64,000 nt of DNA. Origin: an uncultured Paraprevotella sp. (GTDB taxonomy: Bacteria > Bacteroidota > Bacteroidia > Bacteroidales > Bacteroidaceae). The notes below the pieces were generated by a model. That model was not told the DNA's origin and did not search any database. It saw only the letters and a list, made by a program, of their open reading frames with translations. Every line of letters starts with the position of its first letter. The stretch's first letter is position 1. Below are positions 21,814 to 47,664 of this stretch, piece after piece. A program made the position numbers and the translations under genes. Where the stretch lies: contig CALUKY010000002.1 in assembly GCA_944321345.1 (NCBI GenBank), positions 62,001 through 126,000 of the forward strand, read 5' to 3'.

Positions 21814-24522
21814 TTACTTCTCCACAGGTTCATTTGGAACATTTGGAGTTTCGTAAACCGGCAGTGGAGAATGTGCCATCTTTTGCATCATGTCAGCATC
21901 CACTTCCTTTAAGCCCAAAGCATCCATATCCGCCTTAAACTCATCCTTCATATCTTGCATCATGGCATAACCCTTATTACCATAGTCACCGATCATCATG
22001 ACAACAGTACGCATGAATCCATAATTATCAAAGAAGTCAAAGAGGTTATATCCGCTGATCAAGGAAGCCTTTCTGATGTAGTTGAAAATAAACGGCACAC
22101 TGTTCTGCCAGCAGTTGGAGTTTTCATTGATGTATTTCAACCAGCAAGTGTTCGGATAAAGCTCTTTCAATTTATCCAATTTACCCTCCACTCCATTCTG
22201 TGCACCTGCAATCAACTCATACTTGTCCACCTCGGATTTGCGCTGCCCGTTCGGCATTATCTCTACAGAAGAACCGTTCTCATTGTCGTTCTGACGCAGT
22301 GACTCATACAGATCCAATTGGAAGTCCTTCTTGGACTTGTCCTCGGAAACATAGCTGAAATAGTTATGCAACATGTAGAATGGAGCGGTATTCTGCTCTA
22401 CATTTACTTCATTTGTTGAAACCGCATGCTCGCGGTCTTCCTTCAAGGACGGAATCGCCCAACGGCCATTTTCATAACATTTAGCGTACTGCGCACGGAT
22501 CTCGTCCTGAACGGCCGGACACCAGCTGAAAGAATTAATCTGCTGATAAGCCGCCAGACGCCACTGAGAGGTCAGTGTGTCTTCCACATTGACAAAGAAG
22601 GTATTATAGGCACCTTCCCAAGCCCCTTCAATTCGTCCAGCTCCCTGATCTTTTTTGTTTCCAGCCCAATCTAGAATATAATCACCATTCTCATCTTTCG
22701 CATATCCTTGGTATCCCATACGCAACACATTCTCACAAGAATTCATATTATTGGAACTTTCACCCAAACCGGCCCAACAGAAATAAGGCTGCATTTGATG
22801 CTGGTGTCCCCACTCATGGCTCAAGCCCCAAATGGCATCACCATCATTCGTCATGATTGTTTTACAATTCAAAACTCGGCTTTCCTGATCATACATGAAA
22901 GATACTCCGTAATACCCCTGGAACATATAGTAAGTATAGTTCACATAAGCCATTGTACGGTTATCTGGAACACGGTTGTATTTTTTCAATCCCAACAAAT
23001 GGTGTTCCCAATCAACCAAAGTATCCAATACATTCATAAACTGAACATAACCTTTGGAATTACCATCTATGGCCTTACAGTAATTTCTCATACCTGAAAC
23101 CTGCCATATAGAGTGCACCTTACTACCTACCAAGTCGATACAACGGTTCTTGGCATTTTGCAAAACCACATCCAGCTCATCATTCGTCCGATCCGGAGAA
23201 AGATAACCATTCACAATTCCATTGATAAAGTGGACTTTCACATTCGGATATTTGTTATGGTCTACCGGACTCTCATCTGAATAGTATGCAATATATGCCA
23301 ATCCATCATAGTCAGAAGTATACTCAATCGTGTTGATTCCATTATGCAAGGTATATGAATATTCTGCCGGGCCAGCACCCACACCTTCAGAATCCAATTC
23401 CTTAGAGAACCAGGCAACTACCTTAAGATTCAGAGATTCACCATCCGGTAGTCCCGAAACAGCAATTCCATGAGTACCCTTATTAATATTGATACCAGTC
23501 ACACCCTGAAGATGATCATAATATTTTCCTGGCGCCTTCAACAAATCAGACTGTGCCTCCGGAGAAAGACGACAAGTATATTCCTGAATTCTTCCTTTGG
23601 TAAATTCAGCACTATTGTCAAGCAACTGCTGAGCCACAAATTTAGCATAGGGGTTAGTCAAAGCATTGATATCATCCTGAGTAGTTCCCGGTTTTAAAGA
23701 GCTCCACAGATCATCAGCAAAGATCGCAGTATTAGGATCATCCGCAACTTTCTTATAAAACTCCATTTCGGCACATGATGCGAAATTGTTGGCACCTGAT
23801 TTAACAACAAATTTAATGGAAACCGGATTTTTCAGTGGTTCATCAAAAACAACATCACGTGACAGACTCTTTCCTCCCCATTTATTTGTATATACTTCTC
23901 TATAATCTGTATCTCCGGCACATTTTACAGAAATAACCACTTCGTCAAAGTTTCCATTGTTTCCACCTGCTGTACGCGGACAATATCTCAAATAGTCAAT
24001 TTGATCAACATCCTTAAAATTATAGATAAGCGTAAATGGAAACTCTCCATTCTGGTAAGGAGAATGCCACAGAGTGTTCATATTTCCATCATAGGTTCTA
24101 TCAATACCTTCCCCAGGCTGAGAAGCACTGGCAGAAGCAGAAGCCACATTTACTTTCAAATCCTTAGGAGCATACGAAGCCAGATTTTCTCGATCTTGAT
24201 CTACAACAAATGTACGTTTCATAACTCCATTCTTTGTAGCCAAAGTAATCTGAGCAGTTCTTTCTTCCGGATTAAAATTCTGATTCACGACAACTTTCAA
24301 ACGTTTCTTATCCATTGAAGCTTTTGCCCAATCCACAGAAGAAGCGATCTCGAGTTCTTCCTGATTAGATAACACCGGAACATAAAAGACAGTATCAGCA
24401 CTACCTACCGTCATTCTCTGAGCTCCCAACAGCAGCATATTCTTCTCTGCCGTGCTCTGCGCAAAAGTAGCTGTAGCGGAAAGGAGCATCAAAGCTCCTG
24501 AAAATAATATATTTTTGTTCAT
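21814..24522 (-). CDS. M60-like (enhancin/mucinase) metallopeptidase with BACON and discoidin-like domains
   Basis: A 902-residue exported zinc peptidase. After the signal peptide (ATATFAQ) comes a BACON-like domain (about residues 28-115). An F5/8 type C/CBM32-like domain follows (about 120-260, with GIDRTYDGNMNTLWHSPY), then the M60 domain with the zinc motif HEWGHQHQ at about 569-576. BT4244 of Bacteroides thetaiotaomicron has the same type of architecture and cleaves O-glycosylated mucin. By analogy this enzyme attacks mucin glycoproteins. Unlike BT4244 it has no lipobox, and its C-terminus (PVYETPNVPNEPVEK) is not an obvious T9SS tail, so its final location is unclear. It is the last gene of an operon with a sulfatase and an LRR protein. 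Confidence 0.9.
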   Translation of the reverse strand: MNKNILFSGALMLLSATATFAQSTAEKNMLLLGAQRMTVGSADTVFYVPVLSNQEELEIASSVDWAKASMDKKRLKVVVNQNFNPEERTAQITLATKNGVMKRTFVVDQDRENLASYAPKDLKVNVASASASASQPGEGIDRTYDGNMNTLWHSPYQNGEFPFTLIYNFKDVDQIDYLRYCPRTAGGNNGNFDEVVISVKCAGDTDYREVYTNKWGGKSLSRDVVFDEPLKNPVSIKFVVKSGANNFASCAEMEFYKKVADDPNTAIFADDLWSSLKPGTTQDDINALTNPYAKFVAQQLLDNSAEFTKGRIQEYTCRLSPEAQSDLLKAPGKYYDHLQGVTGININKGTHGIAVSGLPDGESLNLKVVAWFSKELDSEGVGAGPAEYSYTLHNGINTIEYTSDYDGLAYIAYYSDESPVDHNKYPNVKVHFINGIVNGYLSPDRTNDELDVVLQNAKNRCIDLVGSKVHSIWQVSGMRNYCKAIDGNSKGYVQFMNVLDTLVDWEHHLLGLKKYNRVPDNRTMAYVNYTYYMFQGYYGVSFMYDQESRVLNCKTIMTNDGDAIWGLSHEWGHQHQMQPYFCWAGLGESSNNMNSCENVLRMGYQGYAKDENGDYILDWAGNKKDQGAGRIEGAWEGAYNTFFVNVEDTLTSQWRLAAYQQINSFSWCPAVQDEIRAQYAKCYENGRWAIPSLKEDREHAVSTNEVNVEQNTAPFYMLHNYFSYVSEDKSKKDFQLDLYESLRQNDNENGSSVEIMPNGQRKSEVDKYELIAGAQNGVEGKLDKLKELYPNTCWLKYINENSNCWQNSVPFIFNYIRKASLISGYNLFDFFDNYGFMRTVVMMIGDYGNKGYAMMQDMKDEFKADMDALGLKEVDADMMQKMAHSPLPVYETPNVPNEPVEK

Positions 24523-24550: not shown

Positions 24551-25951
24551 TTAGAGAGAAACCTTTACTCCGTTCACCAGGAAAATTCCGTGTCCTAAAG
24601 AAACACGTTCCTCGCCAGTAACGATTCCAGTCCATACCTGCTTACCATCAACCGTGTGAATATTAACTCGATATGGCTTATCTGATTTCATATTAATTGT
24701 ACCGTTATTCGTAACATAAGAGAAACCATAAGATGCCATCACATCTTCTATACCAGTTTCTTCTGTTACAACATTCAAAGGTTCGCTAGTCAATGTAATG
24801 CCCGGATAATAGTCTGTTGTAACCTCACAATAAATAGCATTGAACGGTTTATTGAACTTAAACAAGCCATTGCGCTCGGTATAATCATCTTTTGAACCCT
24901 TTACCAGTTCTGCATCACCATTCTTCCAAACATAATCTGCATAAAGTTTTTCTCCGTCCAGATTCTCCTCAAAACCATCCAAAACAATTTGCTCCCCTAC
25001 CAGAATCTGGCTCTCAGGAAGTGCAAACTTATTCTGCGGACCAAACAAGGCCTCATATTGAACATTTTCCATAGAATGCATGGAAGAGAAGGTCAGATTA
25101 TTTCCATCGCAATAAAAAGCCAAGGTTTTATTGGTTGAGGTTGCCACCGGAATATTCAATTGGGATAGCAAATTGTTTGAACAAGACAAAGTCTGCAAAC
25201 CTACACTTTTCTGAATATCCAAAGTTTTCAACTGGTTATTATCACACCAAAAGTCTACAAGTGCGGTACAGTTTGCAGCACTTACAGTAGAAACTTTGTT
25301 ATTATCGAAAACCAATGACTGCAATTTTGAATTGGAATTCAAATTCAGGCTTGTCAACTCGTTATCCTGACACCACAAGGTTTCCAGATTGGACAAAGAA
25401 GAAGTACCCAATGAAGTCAGCGAATTGCCAGAACAAATCAATGTTTTCAGACTTTCCTGACTAGACAATGACAAGGCAGACAATTTATTGTTCGCACAAT
25501 TCAAGGACTTCAGATTACGCAATAAAGTCATTCCCAATGAAGACAATTCATTTTCAGAACAATCCAGATCTTCCAGATTACGCACAGCACTCAATGTCAT
25601 TGAGGTTAACTGGTTATCAGAGCAATACAATGCTTTCAAGTTCAAAGCATCAGCAAACTCCAGCCCAGTCAATTCATTGGAACTACAGTCAAAAAGCCAA
25701 AGATTGTCACAAGAGACAGTCACAGTTTGTCCCTTCAGGGTACCCTTTACGGGCTCGCCGTTCGTTGAAACTTCCACGACCTTTCCGTCACCCCAGTCAA
25801 TCGACAGGTTACCCGGATTGGTTGCGAAACTCATTTCCGCACCAACAGCCTTACCGGTTGTCAGTGTTACCTTGGTCTGAGCATTGGCCAAAGACGGGCT
25901 CAAAGCCACTCCGGCAACTAATGCCAAGGAAAATAAAGTACTTTTTTTCAT
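24551..25951 (-). CDS. Secreted leucine-rich-repeat protein with T9SS-like tail
   Basis: A 466-residue exported protein with signal peptide ending SLANAQ. About ten LRR units of roughly 21 residues follow, each ending in forms such as LKALYCSDNQLTSM, LEDLDCSENELSSL and LETLWCQDNELTSL. The Cys at a fixed position and the Asn in the turn are typical of Bacteroidetes secreted LRR proteins. After the repeats there is an Ig-like region and a C-terminal segment with ETGIEDVM, YRVNIHTVDGKQVW and LGHGIFLVNGVKVSL that looks like a type IX sorting tail. The likely role is surface adhesion or substrate recognition. It lies between a sulfatase and the M60 peptidase with gaps of 28-29 bases. Confidence 0.8.
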   Translation of the reverse strand: MKKSTLFSLALVAGVALSPSLANAQTKVTLTTGKAVGAEMSFATNPGNLSIDWGDGKVVEVSTNGEPVKGTLKGQTVTVSCDNLWLFDCSSNELTGLEFADALNLKALYCSDNQLTSMTLSAVRNLEDLDCSENELSSLGMTLLRNLKSLNCANNKLSALSLSSQESLKTLICSGNSLTSLGTSSLSNLETLWCQDNELTSLNLNSNSKLQSLVFDNNKVSTVSAANCTALVDFWCDNNQLKTLDIQKSVGLQTLSCSNNLLSQLNIPVATSTNKTLAFYCDGNNLTFSSMHSMENVQYEALFGPQNKFALPESQILVGEQIVLDGFEENLDGEKLYADYVWKNGDAELVKGSKDDYTERNGLFKFNKPFNAIYCEVTTDYYPGITLTSEPLNVVTEETGIEDVMASYGFSYVTNNGTINMKSDKPYRVNIHTVDGKQVWTGIVTGEERVSLGHGIFLVNGVKVSL

Positions 25952-25980: not shown

Positions 25981-27522
25981 TTATTTAGGTAATATAATCG
26001 GGAATAGCGGACTGTCCACATGCTCCTTTCGAACAATGTCACACAGTTCAGCTACTATTTCAGGATGCTTGTCTGCTATATTATGATCTTCATGTACATC
26101 CGCTGCCAAATCATAAAGTTCACATTTGCCCGACTTCACAATCAGTTTCCAATCGCCTTTACGTACGGCAATCTGTTGGGTTTCATTAAACTCCCAATAG
26201 AGATAAGGATGTTTTTTCTGCTTCTTATCTTGTCCTAATAAGGTCGGAGCAAAAGATATTCCATCAAAATAATCCTCCTTTTTCTCTTTATTCACATACT
26301 TCTTGGTATAATCTTTTATTCCGGCTAACTCACAAAAAGTTGGCATAATATCATAAAAAGCCAACTGATGGTCATTCACCACACCAGCCGGTATCTTGCC
26401 CGGCCACTTGGCAATAAAAGGCACACGGATTCCTCCTTCATGGCAAGAACGCTTCAAACCGCGCAACTTACCGTCTCGACCGAAAAAGGCAGGATCAGCT
26501 CCTCCTTCTTCATGAGGTCCATTATCCGAAGAAAAAATAACCAATGTATTTTCAGCCAAGCCCTTTTCCTCCAGTTTCTGCATGATCTCACCGACATAAT
26601 CATCCAGACGGGTAATCATTGCAGCAAACTGTGCGTGAACATTAGCAACAGCATTATACCGGGATCCGTTATCTCCTTTAAAATTCTTGTCGTTCTTGAA
26701 TTTTTCCAGATAATAATCCAAAATGGAATCACCAGGTTGCACCAGCTCGGCATGAGGCAACGTATAAGTAAAGAATCCGTAAAATGGCTGATCAGCCGTT
26801 TGCCGGTCCAGCCATTCCATAGCCTTATCGTGAATCATACGAGCTGAATACTGCGGGCGGCGTCCATACTCCGATCCCTGCATCGGATATTTGATATTTT
26901 CATCCATAACCACGCGCACCACTCCTGTATCACCAAGAGTTTTACTATATCGGTTCAAAAAGTTCGGATAATAAAGATGTGCCTGAAACTGACAAATAAA
27001 ACCATAATATTCATCTATTCCACGCTTGTCAGGTGTAGATACAGAGCCTTCATAACCTCCGGCCCACTTACCGAACATACCCGTAGTGTATCCCTGATCT
27101 TTCAAAATCTCAGGAAGAATTACATGTTCCGGATCGTACGGATGTTGACCGGCTACAGCATAATCCGTATTGCGGCCATATTGAACCTGTCCGGACCAAT
27201 ACTCCTTATTACCCCGAACTTCCGTATGTCCGGTATGCTGTCCGGTCATCAATGTAGCACGCGACGGAGCACTGACAGGACTTCCGGCATAGGCCTGGGT
27301 AAACAGCATTCCTTCTGAAGCCATTTTATCCAGATTCGGAGTTTTAATATATTTCTGACCATAACAGGCCAAATCCCCATACCCCATATCATCACACAGA
27401 ATAAAAATGATATTGGGAGCATTATTCTGCCTTGCCTGCAATCCTACCGAGAGCAACAAACCTCCAAACAGACCAACTTTCCGAATCCTATTTATTTTTT
27501 CAGCAAACATGACTTCATTCAT
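25981..27522 (-). CDS. S1-family sulfatase (serine type)
   Basis: A 513-residue exported sulfatase of the alkaline-phosphatase superfamily. Metal-binding FILCDDMGYGDLACYG is near the N-terminus. The active-site motif is SAPSR (residues 84-88), in which Ser84 must be converted to formylglycine; this serine form is handled by anaerobic sulfatase-maturating enzymes. FSSDNGPHEEGGADP supplies further metal ligands. It closely resembles the sulfatase at 39941-41488 over its whole length. The exact sulfate ester cannot be told, but the neighbours point to mucin or glycosaminoglycan sulfate. It is the first gene of an operon with the LRR protein and M60 peptidase. A second ATG four codons in is possible. 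Confidence 0.93.
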   Translation of the reverse strand: MNEVMFAEKINRIRKVGLFGGLLLSVGLQARQNNAPNIIFILCDDMGYGDLACYGQKYIKTPNLDKMASEGMLFTQAYAGSPVSAPSRATLMTGQHTGHTEVRGNKEYWSGQVQYGRNTDYAVAGQHPYDPEHVILPEILKDQGYTTGMFGKWAGGYEGSVSTPDKRGIDEYYGFICQFQAHLYYPNFLNRYSKTLGDTGVVRVVMDENIKYPMQGSEYGRRPQYSARMIHDKAMEWLDRQTADQPFYGFFTYTLPHAELVQPGDSILDYYLEKFKNDKNFKGDNGSRYNAVANVHAQFAAMITRLDDYVGEIMQKLEEKGLAENTLVIFSSDNGPHEEGGADPAFFGRDGKLRGLKRSCHEGGIRVPFIAKWPGKIPAGVVNDHQLAFYDIMPTFCELAGIKDYTKKYVNKEKKEDYFDGISFAPTLLGQDKKQKKHPYLYWEFNETQQIAVRKGDWKLIVKSGKCELYDLAADVHEDHNIADKHPEIVAELCDIVRKEHVDSPLFPIILPK

Positions 27523-27720: not shown

Positions 27721-28512
27721 ATGAGAGTTATTATCGAACCGAACTACGACCAATTGTCACAATGGGCCGCAAATTATGTAATCAATAAAATTAATGCAGC
27801 ACAGCCAACTGCAGAGAAGCCTTTCGTTTTGGGATTGCCGACAGGATCATCTCCAATTGGTATGTATAAAGCCCTCGTTGAAGCATACAAAGCCGGCAAA
27901 GTAAGTTTCAAGAATGTAGTTACTTTCAACATGGACGAGTATGTCGGTCTGCCGGAATCTCATCCGGAAAGCTACCATTCTTTCATGGCGAACAATTTGT
28001 TCAACCATATTGATTGCCCAAAAGAGAATATTCATATCCTGAACGGCAATGCCGACAATCTGGAAGCTGAATGTGCAAATTATGAGAAAATGATCGAGGA
28101 AGCCGGTGGTATTGACCTGTTCATCGGAGGTATCGGTCCTGACGGCCATATCGCATTCAACGAACCGGGTTCTTCTCTGACTTCACGCACTCGTGTAAAG
28201 ACCCTGACTACAGACACCCGTATTGCCAACTCCCGCTTCTTCGGCGGTGACCCGAACAATGTACCTTTGCACGCTCTGACTGTAGGTGTAGGTACTGTTA
28301 TGTCTGCTAAAGAAGTATTGATCCTCTGCAACGGCCACAACAAGGCAAAAGCATTGTATCACGCAGTAGAAGGCGGCATTACTCAGATGTGGACGATTAG
28401 CGCATTGCAGTTGCACCAGCATGGAATCATCGTTTGCGATGAAGCTGCAACAGACGAATTGAAGGTCGGTACTTACAAGTACTTCAAAGACATCGAGAAA
28501 GATGCCCTTTAA
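27721..28512 (+). CDS. nagB: Glucosamine-6-phosphate deaminase
   Basis: A 263-residue cytosolic enzyme that converts glucosamine-6-phosphate to fructose-6-phosphate and ammonia, the last dedicated step of GlcNAc catabolism. The phosphate-binding [15 protein letters not shown], the active-site region [20 protein letters not shown] and the catalytic [17 protein letters not shown] are intact. Length is normal. It works with NagA at 35557-36717 in the same locus. A hairpin with a T-rich end follows 35 bases after the stop and separates it from the sulfatase maturase gene. Confidence 0.97.
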
Positions 28513-28547: not shown

Positions 28548-28607
28548 CATCCTGAATACAAGCAGACGGCCGCAACAGACCCATCTTGTATTCAGGATGT
28601 CTATTTT
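28548..28607 (+). terminator. Hairpin between nagB and the sulfatase maturase gene
   Basis: CATCCTGAATACAAG at 28548-28562 pairs perfectly with CTTGTATTCAGGATG at 28585-28599 around a 22-base loop, followed by TCTATTTT. The T-tract is short, so it may be a partial terminator or a processing site controlling the ratio of NagB to the maturase. It covers the ATG at 28597, which argues for the later start at 28618. Confidence 0.6.
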
Positions 28608-28617
28608 AAAGGCATTT

Positions 28618-29859
28618 ATGGAAAAAACTACCTATACCCTTAGCAAGCCGCTCTATATCATGACCAAGCCGGCTGGCTCTCTTTGTAATCTGGCCTGTGA
28701 TTACTGCTATTATACAGAAAAATCAAAGCTCTATCAGCATACTCCCAAACAGATTATGAGCGATGAGTTGCTGGAGAGATTTATCAAAGAATACATCAAC
28801 AGTCAAACCACACCCGAAATTTACTTTACCTGGCATGGCGGAGAAACCATGATGCGCCCGCTTGAATTCTATAAAAAGGCTGTAAAATTTCAGAAAATGT
28901 ATGGCCAGGGACGCAGAATCGCCAACTCGATCCAAACCAACGGTACTCTAATTACCGAAGAATGGTGCCGTTTCTTCCATGAGGAAAACTGGTTGGTCGG
29001 AGTTTCCATCGATGGTCCCCAGGAATTTCACGACGAGTACAGAAAGTCAAAAAGAGGCAAACCATCTTTCGTTCAAGTCATGAACGGCATCAAACTGCTG
29101 AACAAATTTCAGGTAGAATGGAACGCGATGGCCGTAGTAAACGATTATAACGCGGACTATCCGCTTGAATTCTATCATTTCTTCAAGGAAATCGGTTGCC
29201 ATTACATTCAGTTTACGCCTGTTGTCGAACGCATATTCAAGCATCCGGACGGCAGAATCTTAGCGACCCCTACCGAAGGAGCAGAGGCCAAGCTGGCTGA
29301 CTTTTCCGTGACCCCAGAACAATGGGGCAAGTTTTTATGCACGATCTTCGACGAGTGGGTCCGGAATGATGTCGGTGACTATTACATTCAGATATTTGAC
29401 GCCACATTGGCCAATTGGGTAGGAGTGCTCCCGGGACTTTGCAGCATGGCCGAGACCTGCGGACATGCCGGCATCATGGAGTTTAATGGCGATGTATACA
29501 GTTGCGACCATTTTGTTTTTCCGGAATATAAACTGGGCAATATCTATCAGAAAAATCTGATTGAGATGATGTTCTGCGAAAAGCAGCTCAAGTTTGGCGA
29601 GGCCAAGAAATCTACATTAACCCAACAGTGTAAAAACTGTGATTTTCTGTTTGCATGCCATGGCGAATGCCCAAAGAACAGATTTGCCCTTTCTAAAGAT
29701 GGAGAAAACGGCCAGAACTATCTGTGCGCCGGTTACCACCAATTCTTCAAACATGTGGCTCCCTATATGGACTTTATGAAAGAAGAGCTCAAGAACGAAA
29801 GACCACCTGCCAATGTCATGCAATGGATTAAGGACGGCGGACTGGAGCGAGAATTATAA
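28618..29859 (+). CDS. Anaerobic sulfatase-maturating enzyme (radical SAM, SPASM)
   Basis: A 413-residue cytosolic radical-SAM enzyme that oxidises the active-site Ser (or Cys) of sulfatases to formylglycine. The radical-SAM cluster motif CNLACDYC (Cys23, Cys27, Cys30) lies in KPAGSLCNLACDYCYY, as in characterised anSMEs. The C-terminal SPASM cysteines are visible in GLCSMAETCGHAG, VYSCDH, CKNCDFLFACHGECPKNRF and LCAGYH. All three sulfatases in this locus are of the Ser type and would depend on it. An in-frame ATG at 28597 lies inside a hairpin and would add seven residues; 28618 is preferred. Confidence 0.95.
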   Translation: MEKTTYTLSKPLYIMTKPAGSLCNLACDYCYYTEKSKLYQHTPKQIMSDELLERFIKEYINSQTTPEIYFTWHGGETMMRPLEFYKKAVKFQKMYGQGRRIANSIQTNGTLITEEWCRFFHEENWLVGVSIDGPQEFHDEYRKSKRGKPSFVQVMNGIKLLNKFQVEWNAMAVVNDYNADYPLEFYHFFKEIGCHYIQFTPVVERIFKHPDGRILATPTEGAEAKLADFSVTPEQWGKFLCTIFDEWVRNDVGDYYIQIFDATLANWVGVLPGLCSMAETCGHAGIMEFNGDVYSCDHFVFPEYKLGNIYQKNLIEMMFCEKQLKFGEAKKSTLTQQCKNCDFLFACHGECPKNRFALSKDGENGQNYLCAGYHQFFKHVAPYMDFMKEELKNERPPANVMQWIKDGGLEREL

Positions 29860-35381: not shown

Positions 35382-35414
35382 AGGAAGTTCTGGTTTAGAT
35401 TTCAAACATTTTTT

Positions 35415-35422
35415 CAAAGATA
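35415..35422 (-). promoter_or_regulatory. -7 element for nhaA
   Basis: TATCTTTG on the minus strand, 34 bases upstream of the ATG at 35381. The -33 region is T-rich without a clear TTG. Confidence 0.4.
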
Positions 35423-38472: not shown

Positions 38473-39861
38473 TTATTTTGCAAACTTGTAAACGACATCC
38501 ATGATTTCCTTACCGATCTGATCTGCAGCTTCCATAGTGGCAGCCTCAGAATAAACACGGATGATCGGTTCGGTGTTGCTTTTACGCAAGTGTACCCACT
38601 TGTCAGCGAAATCAATCTTCACACCGTCAATGTCGTTGATTTCCTCATTCTTATACAGTTCCTTAACCTTAGCCAACAGCGCATCAACATCTGTATCAGG
38701 AGTCAGATCGATACGGTTCTTTGCAATAAAGTAAGGAGGATAAGTGGCACGCAGTTCGCTGGTCTTCATACCCTTCTTTGCCAGATAAGTCAGAATCAAA
38801 GCGATGCCAACCAAAGCATCACGACCGTAGTGAGCTTCCGGATAAATAACTCCACCGTTACCTTCACCACCGATCACGGCATTGGTTTCCTTCATCAAAG
38901 TAACAACGTTAACCTCTCCTACAGCAGAAGCATTGTATTCGCAGCCATATTTACGGGTCACGTCACGCAAGGCTCTGGTTGAGCTCAGATTTGATACGGT
39001 GTTACCCGGAGTATTCTGCAGAATATAATCGGCAACGGTTACCAGAGTATACTCCTCGCCATACATAGTTCCGTCTTCGCAGAACAAAGCCAAACGGTCA
39101 ACGTCTGGGTCTACTACGAAAGCGATATCATGCTCACCCTTCTGCATCAAGGTCTTGATATCTTGCAGGTTCTTCTCCAGCGGTTCCGGGTTATGCTGGA
39201 AATCACCGGTAGCCTCGGTATACAAGCCTGTAACCTTCTCTACTCCCAGCTGCTCCAACAACTTCGGCAGAATGATACCGCCCACTGAGTTTACTGTATC
39301 GATAGCCACCTTGAAATGCGCGTTCTTGATAGCCTCAACGTCTACCAGCTTCAGGTTCTTTACCAGATCAATATGCTTCTGGTCGTAAGAATTATCCTCA
39401 CGATAAGATCCCAAGTGATCTACATCTGCATATTCAAACTCTTCAGCCTCAGCGATACGCAAGACTTCATTTCCCTCTTCTTTATTCAGGAATTCTCCTT
39501 TCTCATTCAGGAGCTTCAAAGCGTTCCACTGACGTGGATTGTGTGACGCAGTCAGAATGATACCACCACAGGCGCCCTCCATTGTTACGGCAAGCTCGGT
39601 AGTAGGAGTACTGGCCAATCCGATGTTTACCACATCAAAGCCCATACCCATCAGAGTTCCACACACTACGTTCTTTACCATCTCGCCAGAAAGACGGGCG
39701 TCACGACCTACAACGATCTTGTTGCTGTTCACCTTGGTAGTCTTACGGATCAGGGTTGCATAAGCAGAGGTAAACTTTACAATATCCAACGGATTTAAAG
39801 TATCACCGGCCTGACCGCCGATGGTTCCACGAATACCGGAAATTGATTTAATAAGAGTCAT
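38473..39861 (-). CDS. glmM: Phosphoglucosamine mutase
   Basis: A 462-residue cytosolic alpha-D-phosphohexomutase that interconverts glucosamine-6-phosphate and glucosamine-1-phosphate on the way to UDP-GlcNAc. The phosphoserine loop GGIILTASHNPRQWNALK (Ser106), the metal loop DPDVDRLALF, the sugar loop GGEGNGGVIYPEAHYGRDAL and the phosphate loop RKSNTEPIIRVYSE are all present. The length is that of GlmM. Its place between GlcNAc-6-sulfatase and another sulfatase gives a direct route from scavenged GlcNAc to peptidoglycan and LPS precursors. It has a perfect Bacteroidetes promoter and its own terminator. Confidence 0.92.
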   Translation of the reverse strand: MTLIKSISGIRGTIGGQAGDTLNPLDIVKFTSAYATLIRKTTKVNSNKIVVGRDARLSGEMVKNVVCGTLMGMGFDVVNIGLASTPTTELAVTMEGACGGIILTASHNPRQWNALKLLNEKGEFLNKEEGNEVLRIAEAEEFEYADVDHLGSYREDNSYDQKHIDLVKNLKLVDVEAIKNAHFKVAIDTVNSVGGIILPKLLEQLGVEKVTGLYTEATGDFQHNPEPLEKNLQDIKTLMQKGEHDIAFVVDPDVDRLALFCEDGTMYGEEYTLVTVADYILQNTPGNTVSNLSSTRALRDVTRKYGCEYNASAVGEVNVVTLMKETNAVIGGEGNGGVIYPEAHYGRDALVGIALILTYLAKKGMKTSELRATYPPYFIAKNRIDLTPDTDVDALLAKVKELYKNEEINDIDGVKIDFADKWVHLRKSNTEPIIRVYSEAATMEAADQIGKEIMDVVYKFAK

Positions 39862-39927: not shown

Positions 39928-39940
39928 GGAATCATCCACT

Positions 39941-41488
39941 TTATTTAGCAGGAAGTGTCACCTTGAACAACGGGCTGTCTGTATGCTCCTCAAAGATAAT
40001 CGCCTTGAGTTCTTTCACAACTTCCGGGTATTTTGCGGCCACATTGTTATCTTCATGCAAATCGTTCGCCAAATCATAGAGCTCACAAATTCCTGCATTT
40101 ACACGAAGCTTCCAATTACCTTTTCTCACAGCAATCTGATTGGTTTCATGAAACTCCCAGTAAAGGAAATCATGTTTCTCCTGTTTTTCATCATTTCCGA
40201 GCAAAGTAGGCAAGAAAGAAATACCGTCAAAATAATCCTCCTTTCCAGCTGCCGCATACTTCGGATTCGTATATTCCTCAACATAATTCTCCACACCGAC
40301 CAGATCACAGAAAGTAGGCATTACATCATAAAATGCCAACTGATGATCATTCACACTTCCCGGAGCAATCTTACCCGGCCAACGCACAATAAAGGGCACA
40401 CGAATACCACCCTCGAAGCAAGAACGCTTAGTTCCCTTGAGCAGACCGTCACGGTTGAAGAAAGTCGGATCGGCTCCACCCTCTTCATGAGGTCCGTTAT
40501 CAGAAGAGAAAATAACAATCGTATTTTCATCCATGCCCTTTTCTTTCAATTTTGCGAAGATTTCCCCAACATAGGCATCCAAACGAGTAATCATAGCCGC
40601 AAACTGCGCATGTACGTTCTCGGAAGGATTATACCAGGATCCGGCAGACCCGCCATAGTTTTTATCATTACAGAAACGGTTATTATAAGCCTGCAAAATA
40701 GAATCATTAGGCTGATAAAGCTCAGCGTGAGGCAGAGTGTAGGTAAAAAATCCATAGAACGGCTGATCTGCAGTCTGCTTGTCCAACCATTTAAGGGCCT
40801 CCTGATGAATCAGGTCTGCAGAATACTGCGAACGATCCACATAGTCAGCACCATTGCCATACATGGCATGCTTAGTATTTTCTGTCAGTTCCTCGCGCAC
40901 AATTGAAGCGTTTCCATTCTCATCACGTACCAAACGGTTCATAAAGTTAGGATAATAATGATGGGCTTGGAACTGGCAGATATAACCATAAAATTCATCA
41001 ACACCTCGTTTCTCAGGAGTTGACACTGAGCCTTCATAGCCTCCAGCCCATTTGCCAAACATACCTGTATTGTAACCATTCTCCTTCATGATTTCCGGAA
41101 CAATGATGTGGTCAGCATCATAAGGTTCCTGTCCCACGACTTTATAATCCGCATTTTGACCGTAATAAACGGTACCGCTGTTTGGCCAATACTCTTTATT
41201 TCCACGTACTTTTGTATGTCCCGTATGCTGACCGGTCATCAAAGAAGCTCGTGAAGGGGCACTTACCGGACTGCCAGCATAAGCCTGTGTAAAGCGCATT
41301 CCTTCCGCTGCCATACGGTCCAGGTTCGGTGTGCTGATATACTGCTGACCATAGCATCCCAAATCGCCATATCCCATATCATCACACAGGATAAAAATTA
41401 TATTGGGCTTTTCACTGCTTGTCTGCGCAGAAGCCGCGCCAGTCAGCATGAATAAGGAACTGAAAAGGATAATATTTTTATTTTTCAT
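39941..41488 (-). CDS. S1-family sulfatase (serine type), paralog of the 25981-27522 enzyme
   Basis: A 515-residue exported sulfatase; signal peptide ends at ASAQ. Metal site FILCDDMGYGDLGCYG, formylglycine motif SAPSR with Ser76, and FSSDNGPHEEGGADP are all present. Long stretches are nearly identical to the other sulfatase (TGQHTGHTEVRGNKEYW there, TGQHTGHTKVRGNKEYW here; YGFFTYTLPHAEL in both), so one arose by duplication and they probably share or divide a substrate. It lies 65 bases downstream of the 803-residue T9SS-tailed protein gene, with which it probably forms an operon. Confidence 0.93.
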   Translation of the reverse strand: MKNKNIILFSSLFMLTGAASAQTSSEKPNIIFILCDDMGYGDLGCYGQQYISTPNLDRMAAEGMRFTQAYAGSPVSAPSRASLMTGQHTGHTKVRGNKEYWPNSGTVYYGQNADYKVVGQEPYDADHIIVPEIMKENGYNTGMFGKWAGGYEGSVSTPEKRGVDEFYGYICQFQAHHYYPNFMNRLVRDENGNASIVREELTENTKHAMYGNGADYVDRSQYSADLIHQEALKWLDKQTADQPFYGFFTYTLPHAELYQPNDSILQAYNNRFCNDKNYGGSAGSWYNPSENVHAQFAAMITRLDAYVGEIFAKLKEKGMDENTIVIFSSDNGPHEEGGADPTFFNRDGLLKGTKRSCFEGGIRVPFIVRWPGKIAPGSVNDHQLAFYDVMPTFCDLVGVENYVEEYTNPKYAAAGKEDYFDGISFLPTLLGNDEKQEKHDFLYWEFHETNQIAVRKGNWKLRVNAGICELYDLANDLHEDNNVAAKYPEVVKELKAIIFEEHTDSPLFKVTLPAK

Positions 41489-41553: not shown

Positions 41554-43965
41554 TTATTTCAAAGAAACCTTCTTGCTTCCGTCACCTGCAGCGGTAACTA
41601 CTTTCACGATATAAGTTCCCTGAGGCAATCCTGCTACAGAGACCTTTTTTCCAGCAGCCTTACGCACCTGAGTACCGTCTACGGCAAAGATATAAATCAT
41701 CTTGACTTCTGCATCAGTAATCACCTGAATGTTCTGGTCTCCCTGCTGTATTTCATATACAAAGTTACTCTGGTCTACATTTGCGTCCTGAATGTCTGTG
41801 GCTATAGTACTGTTCGGAGAGAAACAAGCCACCAAATCAGCATTCTCAGTTACCGTAAAGTTATATTCCTTTTCTGTAGAAACAACGGTTCTATTATCCT
41901 TCCAAGCAATGAACTCCAGGTTGTTATTTGGAGTGGCTACTACGGTCAGTTCCTGGCCATAATCACAAGTATAGGACAGTACTGTTTCCTCTCCTATCTG
42001 AATTTCTGCCACACCACGCTCCGGGTCATTAGGTGCCACCGTTACGGTACGCTGTGCCTGTGACTCCGCGATATTGACAATAAAGTCATAAATAGAACCT
42101 ACAGCATCGTCTTCTGCATCGGCCAAAGCATTATTGGTGATACGGACACGCATTCTGGATTTGCCCACCACGGCATCTTCTGGAACAGAAATCTCTTCTG
42201 CCACATCGGCACTATTATAAGTATACATGGTTTCAAACATACCGTCGCGATTCCAGTCGAAATAAACATACATGGTTACGTTTTCGTCCATCTGAGCCAC
42301 GGTTGCAGACAAATTAAATTTCTGTCCGACACTTACTGTAGCTTTTTCTGTAGTATAAAGTGTATAGTAATTGGTCGGTTTGGCTGTTGCCGCATAATTC
42401 AATTCTTTCAGAACCTGCTCACCGGTAATATTCAGTGCTGTGAGATATCCGTTATCCAACACACCGCAAGGCAATGTATAAACCTGAGCCATCAAGCTAA
42501 AAGTACTGCGATAATTACCTAAAACAAAATCAGAAGCATCACCCACGGTCAAATAAGACGCATCAGTTTCATCTTTTTGATCAAAAGGAACAAACACCAA
42601 GCGAGGAACGCCATTGATATCATTCTCAGCAACAAACCAACGAATAGCGTTTTCCGGTTCTGCGAAAGAATAATTGCCTTCCGCATCCACTGTCAAAGCT
42701 TTTGTCGGCTCATCCATATTAACCAGATAAATTCCCTCTGTCTTATTGCTTGTACCAACAAATACCCATGCGTATTTATTCTCAGAACCTCTTTCTGCCA
42801 GTACGACGGTTCCGTTCTCGGCAGCAATCCATTGTCCGTCAGGAGCGACCAAAGCGGACTTGCCGGCCGCATCGACTTCGTCGAAGCTTTCTACCATCGG
42901 AAGTATTTGCGGTTCATAAGTATATTCAGTTTCCGAAACAGTCCAATAAGAGTTCTGGTTGCCACTTGATGCAGACCATGCAACTACATTCGCTCCAGCC
43001 TTACTTCCGTTCAAGTTCAAGCCCAAAGCGCCGCTCGGAATATTTGTCTGATCTGTACTGCAGAAATAATAGAAAGAAGCGCCATTTGTGGAAGCTCCGC
43101 TCTGGGTATCCTTTCCGATCTTAATTTCCACAGGATTGCTACCCATTGGGATTTGTGCACTTAAATTCTGTTTTGTGCTCTGCACATAGCGTCCTGTCGT
43201 CGCATTCTGCACATAATAACAATTCTCATTACCTGTCGGTATCAGTTTCCAGAACACACGCTCCTTATTCTGGAAAGTTGTGGTATAAAGCAGTCCGGCA
43301 TTATTCTCGACCATAAAAGCACCATCCATATTCATTCTGTTGATGGCATAATACTTATCCTCTGAGAACACACCGTCTGTAACAGGTTTCAAAGGACTTT
43401 CCGGCTCCGGCTCCACGGCGTCCCAGTCTACATCAGTTACATCATAAACATACATGATAGACCATCCTCCGGCACCAACAGCGTATATAGCCTTAGCAGA
43501 AGCTCCTTGGGTATTAATCTTCATATTCGTACCCTTACTGGTAAAACGAGTCAACAGACTATGATCTTTTGCCGGATCCAACCAATTCATGTCCCCCTCA
43601 TCATTGAATGTTGGATTGGTAATTTCAAAGACACCGGCAGAAGCCTTATTTTCCGTTGAACCGATTGCAGTAGAACCTTCCTGATAAGCTGTCAGATACA
43701 GGCCAGTACTTTCATTTTTCAAATAAAAACCGCCATCGGCTTTCTCAACTACAAAAACAGAAGCCTTTGTCGGAGTCATGGAATTGTTTTGCAGAATATT
43801 AATCCATGGATTATTATTCTTCAAGCCACGCAAAACAATCTTTTTTCCATCTACTATTTGATCTGCCGTCAAAATCTGCTCTAAAGAAAGCGAAACGGCA
43901 TGCATTTCACTAAAGCCCGCTAACAGTAGGAAAAACAAGCCTAGTAAGGAATAAATTTTTCTCAT
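41554..43965 (-). CDS. Secreted protein with trefoil-like, GEVED and InlB-like domains and T9SS-like tail
   Basis: An 803-residue exported protein (signal MRKIYSLLGLFFLLLAGFSEMHA). Residues about 200-480 contain beta-trefoil-like blocks (YYAINRMNMDGAFMVENNAG and CYYVQNATTGRYVQSTKQN), often glycan-binding. A GEVED-type domain follows around 520-640 (VYFDWNRDGMFETMYTYN). A divergent InlB B-repeat-like domain comes next, around 650-720 (PERGVAEIQIGEETVLSY and FIAWKDNRTVVSTEKEYNF). The tail KMIYIFAVDGTQVRKA plus GLPQGTYIVKVVTAAGDGSK fits a type IX sorting domain. No catalytic site was recognised. It is the first gene of a likely operon with the downstream sulfatase, so it may present or bind the sulfated glycan. 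Confidence 0.75.
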   Translation of the reverse strand: MRKIYSLLGLFFLLLAGFSEMHAVSLSLEQILTADQIVDGKKIVLRGLKNNNPWINILQNNSMTPTKASVFVVEKADGGFYLKNESTGLYLTAYQEGSTAIGSTENKASAGVFEITNPTFNDEGDMNWLDPAKDHSLLTRFTSKGTNMKINTQGASAKAIYAVGAGGWSIMYVYDVTDVDWDAVEPEPESPLKPVTDGVFSEDKYYAINRMNMDGAFMVENNAGLLYTTTFQNKERVFWKLIPTGNENCYYVQNATTGRYVQSTKQNLSAQIPMGSNPVEIKIGKDTQSGASTNGASFYYFCSTDQTNIPSGALGLNLNGSKAGANVVAWSASSGNQNSYWTVSETEYTYEPQILPMVESFDEVDAAGKSALVAPDGQWIAAENGTVVLAERGSENKYAWVFVGTSNKTEGIYLVNMDEPTKALTVDAEGNYSFAEPENAIRWFVAENDINGVPRLVFVPFDQKDETDASYLTVGDASDFVLGNYRSTFSLMAQVYTLPCGVLDNGYLTALNITGEQVLKELNYAATAKPTNYYTLYTTEKATVSVGQKFNLSATVAQMDENVTMYVYFDWNRDGMFETMYTYNSADVAEEISVPEDAVVGKSRMRVRITNNALADAEDDAVGSIYDFIVNIAESQAQRTVTVAPNDPERGVAEIQIGEETVLSYTCDYGQELTVVATPNNNLEFIAWKDNRTVVSTEKEYNFTVTENADLVACFSPNSTIATDIQDANVDQSNFVYEIQQGDQNIQVITDAEVKMIYIFAVDGTQVRKAAGKKVSVAGLPQGTYIVKVVTAAGDGSKKVSLK

Positions 43966-44238: not shown

Positions 44239-45333
44239 ATGGAACAAACAGAATTAAAAGAAATTGTATCAAAATTTGCCATTAAAGGCACTGTTGCTGA
44301 AATCAAGCCTTTAGGTGCCGGTTTGATCAACGACACTTTTATGGTAACTACCAGTGAAGCTGATCAGCCTAATTATGTTTTACAGCGTATCAACAACGCT
44401 ATTTTCCCGGATGTTGAGATGTTGGCTGACAACATCCAGGCCGTAACTTCTCATATCCGCAAGAAACTGGAGGAAAAAGGCGAGAGCGACATCGACCGCA
44501 AGGTGCTGACATTCGTTCCTCTGGTTGACGGAAGCAAATATTTCTATTTCAACGGCGAAAGCTACTGGCGTATCATGGTGTTCATTCCAAACGCCATCAC
44601 CAAGCAGGCCGTTAATCCGGAATCTTCATATGCTGCCGGAGAAGCCTTCGGTAATTTCCAGGCTATGCTGGCTGACATCCCGGTACAGTTGGGCGAAACC
44701 ATCAAGGATTTCCACAACATGGAGTTCCGTCTGCAGCAGTTGCGCGATGCCGTTAAGGAAGATAAGGCAGGACGTGTAGCTGAGGTAAAATACTATATCG
44801 ACGAGATTGAAAAGCGTGCAGACGAGATGTGCAAGGCTGAGCGTTTAGGACGTGAGGGCAAGTTGCCGAAACGTATCTGCCACTGCGATACCAAAGTGAA
44901 CAACATGATGTTCGACGAGAACGATCAGGTATTGTGCGTTATCGACCTGGATACCGTAATGCCTAACTTCATTTTCTCTGACTACGGTGACTTCCTGCGT
45001 ACAGGTGCCAACACTGCAGAAGAGGACGAGGCAGACTTGAGCAAGGTAAGCTTCAACATGGACATCTTCAAGGCCTTTACCAAGGGTTATCTGAAGTCTG
45101 CCCAGAGCTTCCTGACTCCTGTTGAGATCGAGAATCTGCCATACGCAGCCGCTCTGTTCCCTTACATGCAGTGCGTACGCTTCCTGGCCGACTACATCAA
45201 CGGAGATACCTATTATAAGATCAAATATCCGGAGCACAACCTGGTGCGCACCAAGAACCAGTTCCAGCTTTTGCTGAGCGTTGAGGAGCACACTCCGGAA
45301 ATGAAGCAGTTCATTCAGGAATGCCTGAAGTAA
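44239..45333 (+). CDS. Aminoglycoside-phosphotransferase-fold kinase, N-acetylhexosamine kinase-like (MdsC-like)
   Basis: A 364-residue cytosolic protein of the APH/choline-kinase fold. The N-terminal lobe carries the GAGLINDTFMV nucleotide loop. The C-terminal lobe has a catalytic loop in ICHCDTKVNNMMFD and the metal-binding VIDLDTVMPNFIFSDYGDFLR. This matches NahK-type N-acetylhexosamine 1-kinases and the group named MdsC in the Prevotella RS2 mucin-desulfation cluster. The likely reaction is ATP-dependent phosphorylation of GlcNAc or GalNAc released by the neighbouring hexosaminidases; 1- versus 6-phosphorylation cannot be decided here. No ROK-type GlcNAc kinase is in the window, so this could be the link to NagA or feed a 1-phosphate route instead. 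A terminator follows. Confidence 0.8.
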   Translation: MEQTELKEIVSKFAIKGTVAEIKPLGAGLINDTFMVTTSEADQPNYVLQRINNAIFPDVEMLADNIQAVTSHIRKKLEEKGESDIDRKVLTFVPLVDGSKYFYFNGESYWRIMVFIPNAITKQAVNPESSYAAGEAFGNFQAMLADIPVQLGETIKDFHNMEFRLQQLRDAVKEDKAGRVAEVKYYIDEIEKRADEMCKAERLGREGKLPKRICHCDTKVNNMMFDENDQVLCVIDLDTVMPNFIFSDYGDFLRTGANTAEEDEADLSKVSFNMDIFKAFTKGYLKSAQSFLTPVEIENLPYAAALFPYMQCVRFLADYINGDTYYKIKYPEHNLVRTKNQFQLLLSVEEHTPEMKQFIQECLK

Positions 45334-45357
45334 ATCAGACTTTTTTATTCAATATTC

Positions 45358-45388
45358 AAGCTCATTCTTTATAGAATGGGCTTTTTTT
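45358..45388 (+). terminator. Terminator of the kinase-like gene
   Basis: AAGCTCATTC and GAATGGGCTT pair (one G-T wobble) around a six-base loop, followed by TTTTT. It lies 24 bases after the stop and 69 bases before the GH84 start. Confidence 0.85.
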
Positions 45389-45456
45389 GTAGACTCTCTT
45401 GTGAAAATGCTCTAATTTACGTATGTTTGTATCATGAAATTCAAAAACAAAACCTC

Positions 45457-47664
45457 ATGAAACATTACTTTCTCCCTTTATTCTGCCTGATGTTAGGCGG
45501 AGCCTCCCTGCAGGCACAAACCAACAAAGATCTGCTCCAACCGAAAGTTCAGGAGTTTCAGCTAACGGAAAGTTCAGAAACCCTTGCTCTTCCGGAATCC
45601 TATAAGCTGGTCGCTACAGAAGGCAGTTGCCCTCATGCCATTGACGCTTTAAAACAGATTATGCCCAACAAAGAGGGCAAAGCCAAGTTTCAGGTAATCG
45701 TAGGTAAAAAAGGCGACAAGGCTGTAAAGAAATACGACAAGAAAATTCCACAGAAAAAAGAAGGATACTATCTGGAAATCCAGAAAAACCGCATCGTGAT
45801 TGCCGGTGCAGACCAGCGCGGTACCTTCTACGGTGTGCAGACATTAGGTCAGATGATCCGTCAGGGTGAACTGAGCCTTTGCTCCATCGAAGACTATCCG
45901 GACATTGAATTCCGCGGTGTGGTAGAAGGTTTCTACGGCACTCCATGGAGCCACGAGGCCCGTATGCGCCAGCTGGAGTTCTACGGAAAGAACAAGATGA
46001 ACACCTATATTTATGGTCCGAAAGACGACCCTTACCACTCTTCACCAAACTGGCGCAAGCCTTATCCTGAAAAGGAAGCCGCACAGATACACGAACTGGT
46101 GGAACAGGCCGCACGCCATGAGGTAGACTTTGTGTGGGCCATCCATCCGGGAAAGGACATCAAATGGACAAACGAAGACCGCGACGCACTGATTCAGAAA
46201 TTTGAAGCGATGTATCAGTTGGGCGTCCGCTCATTCGCCGTATTTTTTGACGATATCTGGGGCGAGGGAACCAACCCAAACAAACAGGCCGAACTGCTGA
46301 ACTACATCGACAACGAATTTATCCAGAAGAAACCGGATGTAACTCCGCTTGTGATGTGTCCGACAGAATACAATAAGAGCTGGTCGAACGTAAAAGGCGG
46401 TTATCTGACTACTTTGGGCGAGAAACTTAACCCAAGTATCCACATCATGTGGACCGGCGATCGCGTCATTGCCTGCATCGACAAACCTACTCTGGACTGG
46501 ATCAATCCGCTCATCAAGCGTAAAGCCTACATCTGGTGGAACTTCCCGGTAAGCGACTATGTGCGCGACCATCTGCTTCTCGGCCCGACTTACGGCAACG
46601 CAACAAATATCAAGGACGATATGTCCGGCTTTGTATCCAACCCTATGGAGCGTGCCGAAGCCTCAAAGATTTCACTCTACAGTGTGGCCGACTACACCTG
46701 GAACATGGATACTTATGACAGTCTTCGTTCCTGGAAAAATGCCATCAAGGACCTGTTGCCACAGAATTGCTCACATCTGGAAACCTTCGCATCACACAGT
46801 TCCGACCTCGGTCCGAACGGACACGGATTCCGCCGCGACGAGAGTGTTGACTTGCAGCCTACACTGAAAGCGATGATAGCCGGCGACCAGAAAGCAATGG
46901 AAAGCGTACTGATAGAATGCAAGCGACTGGAAACTGCCTGCGATATTCTGTTGGCCGATACAGAAAACCCGTATCTGATCGAGGAAATACGTCCTTGGCT
47001 GAAACAAGGCAAGCTGTTGGGTGAGTACGGACAGTGCGTGCTTCAGATGATTCAGGCTATACAGCAGAAAGACGACGCCTTCATGACTTATTATAACCGG
47101 GCACGTTCACTGCAAACCCAGATGTATGAACTAGACATGACCGAGAACCAGAACCCTTACCAGCCGGGGGTCAAAGTAGGAAGTCTGGTTCTGTTGCCAA
47201 GTCTGAACGAAATGTTCACCAAAGCGATTACCGAGTACAACACCAAGAACAACACGTCTCTGGACGCCAAGGCAGAATACAATCCTTACACACTGACCAG
47301 CGATGTTCCTCAGCTAAAAATACAGCCAGTACGTGCCCGTCATCAGGATGTCAACGTATCACCGTCGAACGAGGTCATCAAATGGCCGGCCAACGGCTAT
47401 GTACAGATTGTCTCAGACAAGGCTGTCGACATGGAACAGATTTATATTGACTTGGGAACCAAAGACATTGCCGGAAGCTTCCGTGTAGAAGTCAGTGCCG
47501 ACGGACAGAACTGGACCGCCATTCCGCTGACCCAGGAGGCCGAGAAAACTGAGATCGTCGGAAATATCAAGACTCCGGGATTAAGCTATATCCGTCTGGT
47601 CAACAACTCCGGCAAGGAGCTTCAGGTTTACTTTAAGAAGTTTACCTTTAGAGTTCAGAAATAA
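45457..47664 (+). CDS. GH84 beta-N-acetylglucosaminidase
   Basis: A 735-residue exported enzyme; the ATG at 45457 gives a signal peptide (MKHYFLPLFCLMLGGASLQAQ), unlike the earlier in-frame ATG at 45376. The N-terminal domain is followed by the GH84 barrel beginning FRGVVEGFYGTPWSHEARM. The catalytic Asp pair is in VFFDDIWGEG (Asp265-Asp266), as in BtGH84 (BT4395). A helical region and a C-terminal beta-sandwich follow (VDMEQIYIDLGTKDIAGSFRV). GH84 cleaves beta-linked GlcNAc by substrate-assisted catalysis. It has no T9SS tail, so it probably acts in the periplasm, finishing what the surface GH20 starts. A strong terminator follows. Confidence 0.95.
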   Translation: MKHYFLPLFCLMLGGASLQAQTNKDLLQPKVQEFQLTESSETLALPESYKLVATEGSCPHAIDALKQIMPNKEGKAKFQVIVGKKGDKAVKKYDKKIPQKKEGYYLEIQKNRIVIAGADQRGTFYGVQTLGQMIRQGELSLCSIEDYPDIEFRGVVEGFYGTPWSHEARMRQLEFYGKNKMNTYIYGPKDDPYHSSPNWRKPYPEKEAAQIHELVEQAARHEVDFVWAIHPGKDIKWTNEDRDALIQKFEAMYQLGVRSFAVFFDDIWGEGTNPNKQAELLNYIDNEFIQKKPDVTPLVMCPTEYNKSWSNVKGGYLTTLGEKLNPSIHIMWTGDRVIACIDKPTLDWINPLIKRKAYIWWNFPVSDYVRDHLLLGPTYGNATNIKDDMSGFVSNPMERAEASKISLYSVADYTWNMDTYDSLRSWKNAIKDLLPQNCSHLETFASHSSDLGPNGHGFRRDESVDLQPTLKAMIAGDQKAMESVLIECKRLETACDILLADTENPYLIEEIRPWLKQGKLLGEYGQCVLQMIQAIQQKDDAFMTYYNRARSLQTQMYELDMTENQNPYQPGVKVGSLVLLPSLNEMFTKAITEYNTKNNTSLDAKAEYNPYTLTSDVPQLKIQPVRARHQDVNVSPSNEVIKWPANGYVQIVSDKAVDMEQIYIDLGTKDIAGSFRVEVSADGQNWTAIPLTQEAEKTEIVGNIKTPGLSYIRLVNNSGKELQVYFKKFTFRVQK

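Follow-up and report, generated by a model that had tools for sequence, protein, structure and literature searches.

A probable mucin desulfation and amino-sugar island without a local SusC/SusD pair, near type IX secretion genes in Paraprevotella

For gut Bacteroidales, the usual account of mucin use rests on polysaccharide utilization loci (PULs) with a SusC/SusD pair. According to PMC11992087, the PUL BT4240-50 of Bacteroides thetaiotaomicron carries SusC/SusD, a surface glycan-binding protein (SGBP), GH2, GH109 and sigma/anti-sigma genes; BT4244 is an M60 peptidase, BT4243 a GH109 enzyme, BT4242 a putative transporter (called MFS) and BT4241 a GH2 enzyme, and the kinase BT4240 phosphorylates O1 and prefers GalNAc about 275-fold over GlcNAc. 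The mucin sulfatases of this species are spread over at least four PULs, as stated in PMC10154612, and PMC5583593 describes more than half of the GlcNAc-6-sulfatase genes of gut Bacteroidetes as clustered with nagKP or hexosaminidase genes. Paraprevotella clara captures host trypsin in a manner dependent on the type IX secretion system (T9SS), according to PMC9477747. Here, a 64,000-nt stretch of an uncultured Paraprevotella sp. (contig CALUKY010000002.1, positions 62,001 to 126,000; hereafter, the window) is described, in which a gene island at 21814..47664 probably serves mucin desulfation and has no SusC/SusD pair beside it.

The window sits on a 219-kb contig (C2) of a 2.90 Mb assembly consisting of 78 contigs and estimated as 91% complete. 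In it, 39 open reading frames (ORFs) were scanned against Pfam and NCBIfam, which confirmed the enzymes named in an earlier note on this DNA: three Ser-type sulfatases, their maturase, an M60 peptidase, GH20, GH84, NagA, NagB, a kinase and GlmM. Based on these families, assigned by similarity, and on their distribution among relatives, it is likely that the region is an island for mucin O-glycan desulfation and amino-sugar use, placed around an old gldNMLK-porP ... glmM neighbourhood, with a co-inherited core and with S1_20 sulfatases, GH20 and GH84 that vary. The core consists of an S1_11 sulfatase (36823..38388, − strand), the radical-SAM maturase AnSME, which converts sulfatase Ser to formylglycine by family assignment (28597..29859, + strand; NF010308 774 bits and TIGR03942 484 bits, both above cut-off), the GlcNAc-6-phosphate deacetylase NagA (35557..36717, − strand; TIGR00221 260 bits, cut-off 226), the glucosamine-6-phosphate deaminase NagB (27721..28512, + strand; TIGR00502 430 bits, cut-off 237) and an APH-type N-acetylhexosamine 1-kinase (44239..45333, + strand; best PDB match 4wh1, NahK, 251 bits). 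These five genes tend to be present or absent together.

Among the 18 genomes of the Paraprevotella genus group (G-labels; G000 is the window's own), the probes for kinase, S1_11 sulfatase, NagA and NagB all matched strongly in the same six, namely G000, G132, G146, G160, G174 and G254, with identities of at least 90% for NagB, at least 89% for NagA and at least 72% for S1_11. In the stretches fetched from these six genomes (fetched loci and stretches bear L-labels), to which all counts for GH20, GH84, M60, AnSME, the leucine-rich-repeat (LRR) protein, the GEVED protein and S1_20 refer, NagB, NagA, S1_11, AnSME, LRR and kinase genes occur in every case, AnSME and LRR always near NagB. The M60 gene was found in five, the G132 stretch stopping before the M60 position, and the GEVED gene in four (G000, G132, G160, G174). 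The order of the core genes is conserved between species. Five of the 18 assemblies are less than 80% complete, including core-bearing G254 and core-lacking G266, G216 and G242, and the absences of the core in the latter three are therefore less sure; the other lacking genomes are 82–100% complete. The S1_11 probe, which detects other sulfatases in G000 (a genome with ten PF00884 matches), gave no match in 11 of the 12 lacking genomes, and these 11 are probably poor in S1 sulfatases.

The surroundings of the core appear to be an old neighbourhood. Four core-lacking genomes (G022, G216, G188, G087) show the order gldN-M-L-K-porP-pduO ... glmM, with gldK and glmM 5–9 kb apart and no island gene between them. 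Thus, the T9SS core and glmM have long been neighbours, and it is the mucin genes that vary; the T9SS core, counted as a member of the locus in the earlier note, was consequently ruled out as part of the island. In G069, gldK and glmM are 35 kb apart on one contig; six other lacking genomes have them on separate contigs, and no gldK match was found in G048. The window itself has gldKLMN and porP near the island, and island and T9SS core share one contig in G160 and G174 and lie on different contigs in G132 and G146. GlmM (38473..39861, − strand; TIGR03990 515 bits) had to be removed from the locus too. The genome has two PGM-domain genes, GlmM and a 599-aa frame, and GlmM, as the sole copy found and one kept in 18 of the 18 genus genomes, is taken as housekeeping; on the same grounds, it was rejected as a dedicated GlcNAc-phosphate mutase of the island, and it does not behave as a paralogue coming and going with the island. 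The Na+/H+ antiporter gene nhaA (34017..35417, − strand; PF06965 446 bits) is probably another old neighbour, since it occurs near glmM in six of the 12 lacking genomes (L190-L193, L196, L199), including three of the four named above.

On a tree built from glmM DNA, a single change of state is enough to explain the distribution of the core, the 12 lacking genomes forming one side of a branch with support of 99/99. With an outgroup root, the lacking genomes nest inside the rest, and the AU test does not reject a grouping of the six core-bearing genomes as a clade (p-AU 0.288); this tree represents one gene with a long outgroup and does not settle gain versus loss. Gain or loss of the core may have happened just once.

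All three sulfatases carry Ser in an S-x-P-S-R motif (by eye). The S1_11-type gene, MdsA/BT3177-like and with a predicted specificity for GlcNAc-6-sulfate, best matches PDB entry 7p24, "Mucin-desulfating sulfatase" (803.9 bits), followed by the GlcNAc-6-sulfatase 5g2v (583.6 bits). The two S1_20-type genes, at 25981..27522 and 39941..41488 (both − strand), match 7an1 with 874.8 and 800 bits, respectively, and the runner-up 7ana with 363 and 378 bits; the 7an1 sequence is common to 7oqd, 9thu, 9thv and 9thw. At the alignment positions taken as the galactose contacts, the His for O4 and the Glu/Arg for O2 are conserved in both S1_20 genes. In S1_20 enzymes, the His reads the axial O4 of galactose and Glu/Arg reads O2 (PMC10154612). 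Entries 9THU, 9THV and 9THW represent BT1636, described in PMC13383068 as the essential extracellular 3S-Gal sulfatase of B. thetaiotaomicron, with a type I signal peptide and about 10% of the protein extracellular. Both S1_20 genes are thus BT1636-like, with predicted exo action on 3-O-sulfo-galactose. Judging by the best matches, 3-O-sulfo-galactose is as much a target of the cluster as GlcNAc-6-sulfate is, and the earlier label of a sulfated-GlcNAc locus fits one sulfatase of the three. By analogy with BT1636, access of the island sulfatases to the cell surface is possible. Two S1_11 orthologues have lipobox-like N-termini, clear in G160 and doubtful in G254.

The kinase of the Bacteroides locus L079 is 78% identical to the window kinase over 359 residues. 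The gene order of L079, M60-GH109-YitT-GH2-kinase with the kinase last, agrees with that of BT4244-BT4240 save for the membrane protein (YitT-like in L079, MFS in BT4242). Because of this kinship with a BT4240-50-like locus, GalNAc would be the likelier substrate of the window kinase. In another Bacteroides locus, L080, the YitT gene alone of the L079-type set was identified beside the kinase. The closest named record is the kinase of Ca. Paraprevotella stercoravium (L076; 99% identity), and two further loci obtained from kinase matches, L078 and L094, carry Paraprevotella titles. A public contig titled "Clostridium sp. isolate NALB_7961_31" (JAMPGY010000016.1, L077) has a kinase 89% identical to that of the window, and its title looks wrong. 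Smaller Bacteroidales clusters with the kinase were also seen: L127 (GlmM and S1_11), L101 (S1_11 and AnSME), L108 (S1_11) and L133 (GH20, AnSME and S1_11). The complete route from mucin to amino-sugar phosphates that the earlier note described was not seen: neither a GlcNAc 6-kinase nor a sugar permease gave a match among the 39 ORFs.

The remaining hydrolases and possible binders differ in the signals for secretion. The M60 (enhancin-like) peptidase with an F5/8C domain (21814..24522, − strand; PF13402 47 bits over profile positions 14-160 of 275, PF00754 39 bits) has an HEWGH motif and a signal peptide without a lipobox, both by eye, and the GH84 beta-N-acetylglucosaminidase (45376..47664, + strand; NF041654 1153 bits, PF07555 420 bits) likely starts at an internal Met near 45457, judging by a signal peptide seen by eye. 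The 1332-aa GH20 beta-N-acetylhexosaminidase (29989..33987, − strand; PF00728 366 bits, MucBP PF06458 41 bits), the LRR protein (24551..25951, − strand; PF12799) and the GEVED/lectin-like protein, a possible glycan binder (41554..43965, − strand; PF20009, PF18998, and PF14200 just under cut-off), end in T9SS-type tails. These were scored with a profile built from ten tails, five from the own genome outside the reported range and five from relatives, against which the best of 1,850 shuffled tails reached 8.1 bits. The GEVED protein scored 26.0 bits, LRR 11.1 and GH20 10.9, the last two weak yet above all shuffles. TIGR04183, the only curated tail model touching any island protein, scored 22.5 bits on GEVED, just under its cut-off of 23. 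Among orthologues, the tail was present in three of three GEVED proteins (13.0–25.0 bits) and in the one GH20 protein (G132; 14.3 bits), and the LRR proteins scored 13.2, 15.2, 5.5 and 3.4 bits, with one cut short where its stretch ends. An AlphaFold2 model of the GEVED protein, built on three sequences, was too poor to be used (mean pLDDT 41.5).

Other tailed proteins are encoded outside the island. A 1194-aa protein with a T9SS tail, which matches F5/8C and ricin-type lectin families weakly, lies at 13689-17273 (+ strand), followed at 17370-20441 (+ strand) by DUF6057 and PD40-propeller genes; two tandem homologues of the former are near the T9SS genes of G160 (L054), and relatives of one or both of the latter lie near glmM, M60 or T9SS genes in G160, G188, G087 and G254. 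The sizes of these genes would fit a missed SusC/SusD/SusE set, a candidate that was discarded once the region 13689-20441 had been assigned to the lectin-like, DUF6057 and PD40 families. At 56592-63752 (− strand), a 2386-aa T9SS-tailed protein shows LRR, InlB-repeat and carboxypeptidase-regulatory-like matches, and the neighbouring 194-aa protein (55945-56529, − strand) has a tail of the same kind; both tails are among the seeds of the tail profile.

Taken as a pathway, with substrates, locations and the order of steps predicted from the gene content, the island would work as follows. AnSME would activate the sulfatases by turning their active-site Ser into formylglycine. The S1_20 pair would then strip 3-O-sulfate from terminal galactose, and the S1_11 sulfatase would strip 6-O-sulfate from terminal GlcNAc. 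The M60 peptidase would cleave the mucin backbone, GH20, at the surface via T9SS, and GH84, probably in the periplasm, would free GlcNAc and GalNAc, and the T9SS-tailed LRR and GEVED/lectin-like proteins may retain the substrate. In the cytoplasm, N-acetylhexosamines (HexNAc), GalNAc first, would be phosphorylated by the 1-kinase, and NagA and NagB would convert GlcNAc-6-phosphate to fructose-6-phosphate, a 6-kinase and a permease being encoded elsewhere. As there is no local SusC/SusD, the products would enter as small sugars after digestion at the surface or through an unlinked SusC/SusD pair.

A number of observations weigh against the proposed mucin island. NagA and NagB need GlcNAc-6-phosphate as input, and with a 1-kinase they would make up one continuous pathway only if a mutase or a 6-kinase bridged the gap. 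The variable genes are patchy: both S1_20 genes occur in G000, G132 and G160, one in G174 and none in the G146 and G254 stretches; GH84 occurs in three of the six stretches (G000, G132, G254), and GH20 in two (G000, G132), besides a partial match at 32% in G146. In G146 and G254, kinase and NagA are on different contigs. Among the lacking genomes, G202 gave a single sulfatase match, short and weak (E 7e-15), G216 carries a 72% NagB copy elsewhere and six of the 12 show weak NagA matches (E 3e-6 to 5e-4). Island-bearing G146 has a gene for a 626-aa TonB-dependent receptor directly upstream of glmM (L202:8185-10062), and the window gave no such match. The tail profile found no T9SS-type tail on the window M60, the three sulfatases or GH84, and the orthologues of M60 (four), S1_11 (five), S1_20 (five) and GH84 (two) scored at most 0.3 bits or not at all. 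The suggestion in the earlier note that capture and export rest on T9SS-tailed proteins may apply to GH20, LRR and GEVED, which carry such tails, whereas no tail would account for how these enzymes reach intact mucin.

The claim that no SusC/SusD pair is present at the locus was upheld by every search made. The family scans found none among the 39 window ORFs, and BLAST with the five SusC/SusD pairs of the genome itself gave no match in the 40 kb flanking the window on each side or in the stretches of relatives L044-L055. A PF07980 profile search, confined to this one SusD family and to the 91% complete assembly, returned five SusD matches, four of them above the curated cut-off and none on C2. 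The locus thus shows the clustered carbohydrate-active enzymes and sulfatases of a PUL (GH20, GH84, three sulfatases, M60), presumably aimed at a single target glycan, and not the SusC/SusD pair. SusD matches per genome numbered 5, 4, 5, 10, 10 and 3 in the core-bearing genomes and 22, 7, 8, 10, 14, 8, 9, 12, 10, 9, 8 and 22 in the lacking ones (Mann-Whitney p 0.042 for 18 genomes and 0.065 for the 13 at least 85% complete, kinship being ignored).

One explanation of this absence is that it concerns gene order only, the island being an ordinary mucin locus whose products are imported in trans by one of the few SusC/SusD pairs of the genome; to this, we assign somewhat less than an even chance. 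The five SusD matches leave room for it, as does the pair on contig C40, which has a PKD-like gene under cut-off and, about 4 kb off on the opposite strand and beyond three other genes, GH2 and GH95. The spread of B. thetaiotaomicron mucin sulfatases over several PULs, cited above, is a precedent. The Bacteroides loci L085 and L087 have SusC, SusD and a distant sulfatase (26–27% identity) no more than 10 kb from the kinase, L082 has SusC and a sulfatase at such a distance, and in G069, a genome without the island, a SusC/SusD pair is about 5 kb from glmM. None of the other pairs is clearly for mucin glycans, their neighbours encoding fasciclin proteins (two loci, C16), a Met-zincin (C3) and DUF4843/PKD-like proteins (C38).

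It is also possible that mucin is used without SusC/SusD by way of T9SS. True independence, with T9SS-displayed GH20 and binders digesting mucin at the surface and single sugars entering by porins and inner-membrane permeases, is doubtful. It would accord with the three tailed island proteins, with gldKLMN and porP near by, with the T9SS-dependent trypsin capture of P. clara and with the low SusD counts of the three genomes whose islands are fullest (5, 4 and 5, versus 7–22 in the 12 lacking genomes). The untailed M60, sulfatases and GH84 speak against it, GH20 is missing from the G160, G174 and G254 stretches, G146 and G174 have the core yet ten SusD matches each, and the difference in SusD counts is weak. 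A fuller version of this idea, sulfated-mucin feeding with displayed hexosaminidase and binders, sulfatases that partly reach the surface and single sugars released outside, in a lineage whose fullest islands go with a pared-down SusC/SusD repertoire and whose core was gained or lost as one unit beside glmM and the T9SS genes, we regard as unlikely, the more so as GH20 was found in two of the six stretches only. If amino-sugar housekeeping genes (glmM, nagA, nagB) and dispersed hydrolases had come together by chance and did not work jointly, this would explain the housekeeping GlmM, the old neighbour NhaA and the hydrolases that vary among the six genomes. However, it is very improbable, since four genes occur in the same six of 18 genomes, the core order is conserved between species, and NagA and NagB, absent at this level from 12 genomes, do not count as housekeeping here.

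A copy of the small RNA FopS is encoded at 13436-13503 (+ strand; RF04319, 74.4 bits, gathering score 56), about 185 nt upstream of the T9SS-tailed lectin-like gene, and two further copies are on C25 and C8. FopS represses SusC translation in B. thetaiotaomicron, according to PMC11697453. When its pairing with the start regions of 37 window genes and five SusC genes was scored, one SusC and a DUF4230 gene beat all 200 shuffled seeds; the values for the island GH84 (3/200 as low) and one S1_20 sulfatase (5/200) are not notable among 42 tests.

Same-strand genes of the island form runs with gaps of 28–139 nt, and this spacing suggests four transcription units: GEVED-sulfatase-glmM-sulfatase-nagA-nhaA-GH20 (−), sulfatase-LRR-M60 with or without thioredoxin (−), nagB-AnSME (+) and kinase-GH84 (+). 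The thioredoxin gene, of the TlpA/AhpC type (20544..21770, − strand; PF00578, PF13905), is 43 nt downstream of M60 and of uncertain membership. The statement of the earlier note that no regulator is present is true of the island as far as the family scans go, no search having been aimed at regulators; a WYL/WCX-domain regulator-like gene (49482..50453, − strand; PF13280, PF25583), the only regulator family found, lies 1.8 kb outside the island range and is matched by a 94% identical gene at the equivalent position of G132. Positions 48400-48900, which separate GH84 from a low-molecular-weight phosphatase gene, resemble the remains of thioredoxin-like and permease-like genes (by eye). A search of the segment 36823-41488 against 72,556 plasmid records in "near" mode gave no match.

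The island stands near T9SS genes in a genus in which host-protein capture is known, and close relatives lack the core. Without a SusC/SusD pair at the site, these genomes offer a natural comparison of whether T9SS can stand in for SusC/SusD, and the island marks Paraprevotella lineages that are likely to be mucus feeders.

The mds cluster of Prevotella sp. RS2 reportedly has an anaerobic maturase and a HexNAc-type kinase near MdsA, as has the window. The resemblance noted earlier holds as regards the MdsA-type (S1_11) GlcNAc-6-sulfatase and the nearby maturase, MdsA being compared through its description in PMC5066984; compared with RS2, the window adds two BT1636-like S1_20 sulfatases, M60, GH20, GH84, NagA, NagB and T9SS-tailed proteins. 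With the PUL BT4240-50, it has in common the M60-type peptidase and the HexNAc 1-kinase, the likeness of the latter running via L079 and not BT4240 itself, whereas the 39 ORFs gave no match to GH109, GH2, SusC/SusD, SGBP or sigma/anti-sigma genes. Like the clusters in PMC5583593, the island links a GlcNAc-6-sulfatase with amino-sugar catabolism and hexosaminidases, and it differs from them in having T9SS-type tails, no NagP-like permease match and a core present or absent as a unit within one genus. Both S1_20 genes match the structures of BT1636 best by far and keep its sugar-contact residues, but no SusC/SusD PUL surrounds them, one copy adjoining glmM and the other the LRR gene. The trypsin-capture proteins 00502/00509 of Paraprevotella (PMC9477747) come from the same genus as the tailed proteins and are surface proteins, exported via T9SS, that capture a host protein. 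A full-text literature search found no paper joining type IX secretion, SusC, mucin and sulfatase. The parts of the island are known and their arrangement is new, the core being inherited jointly.

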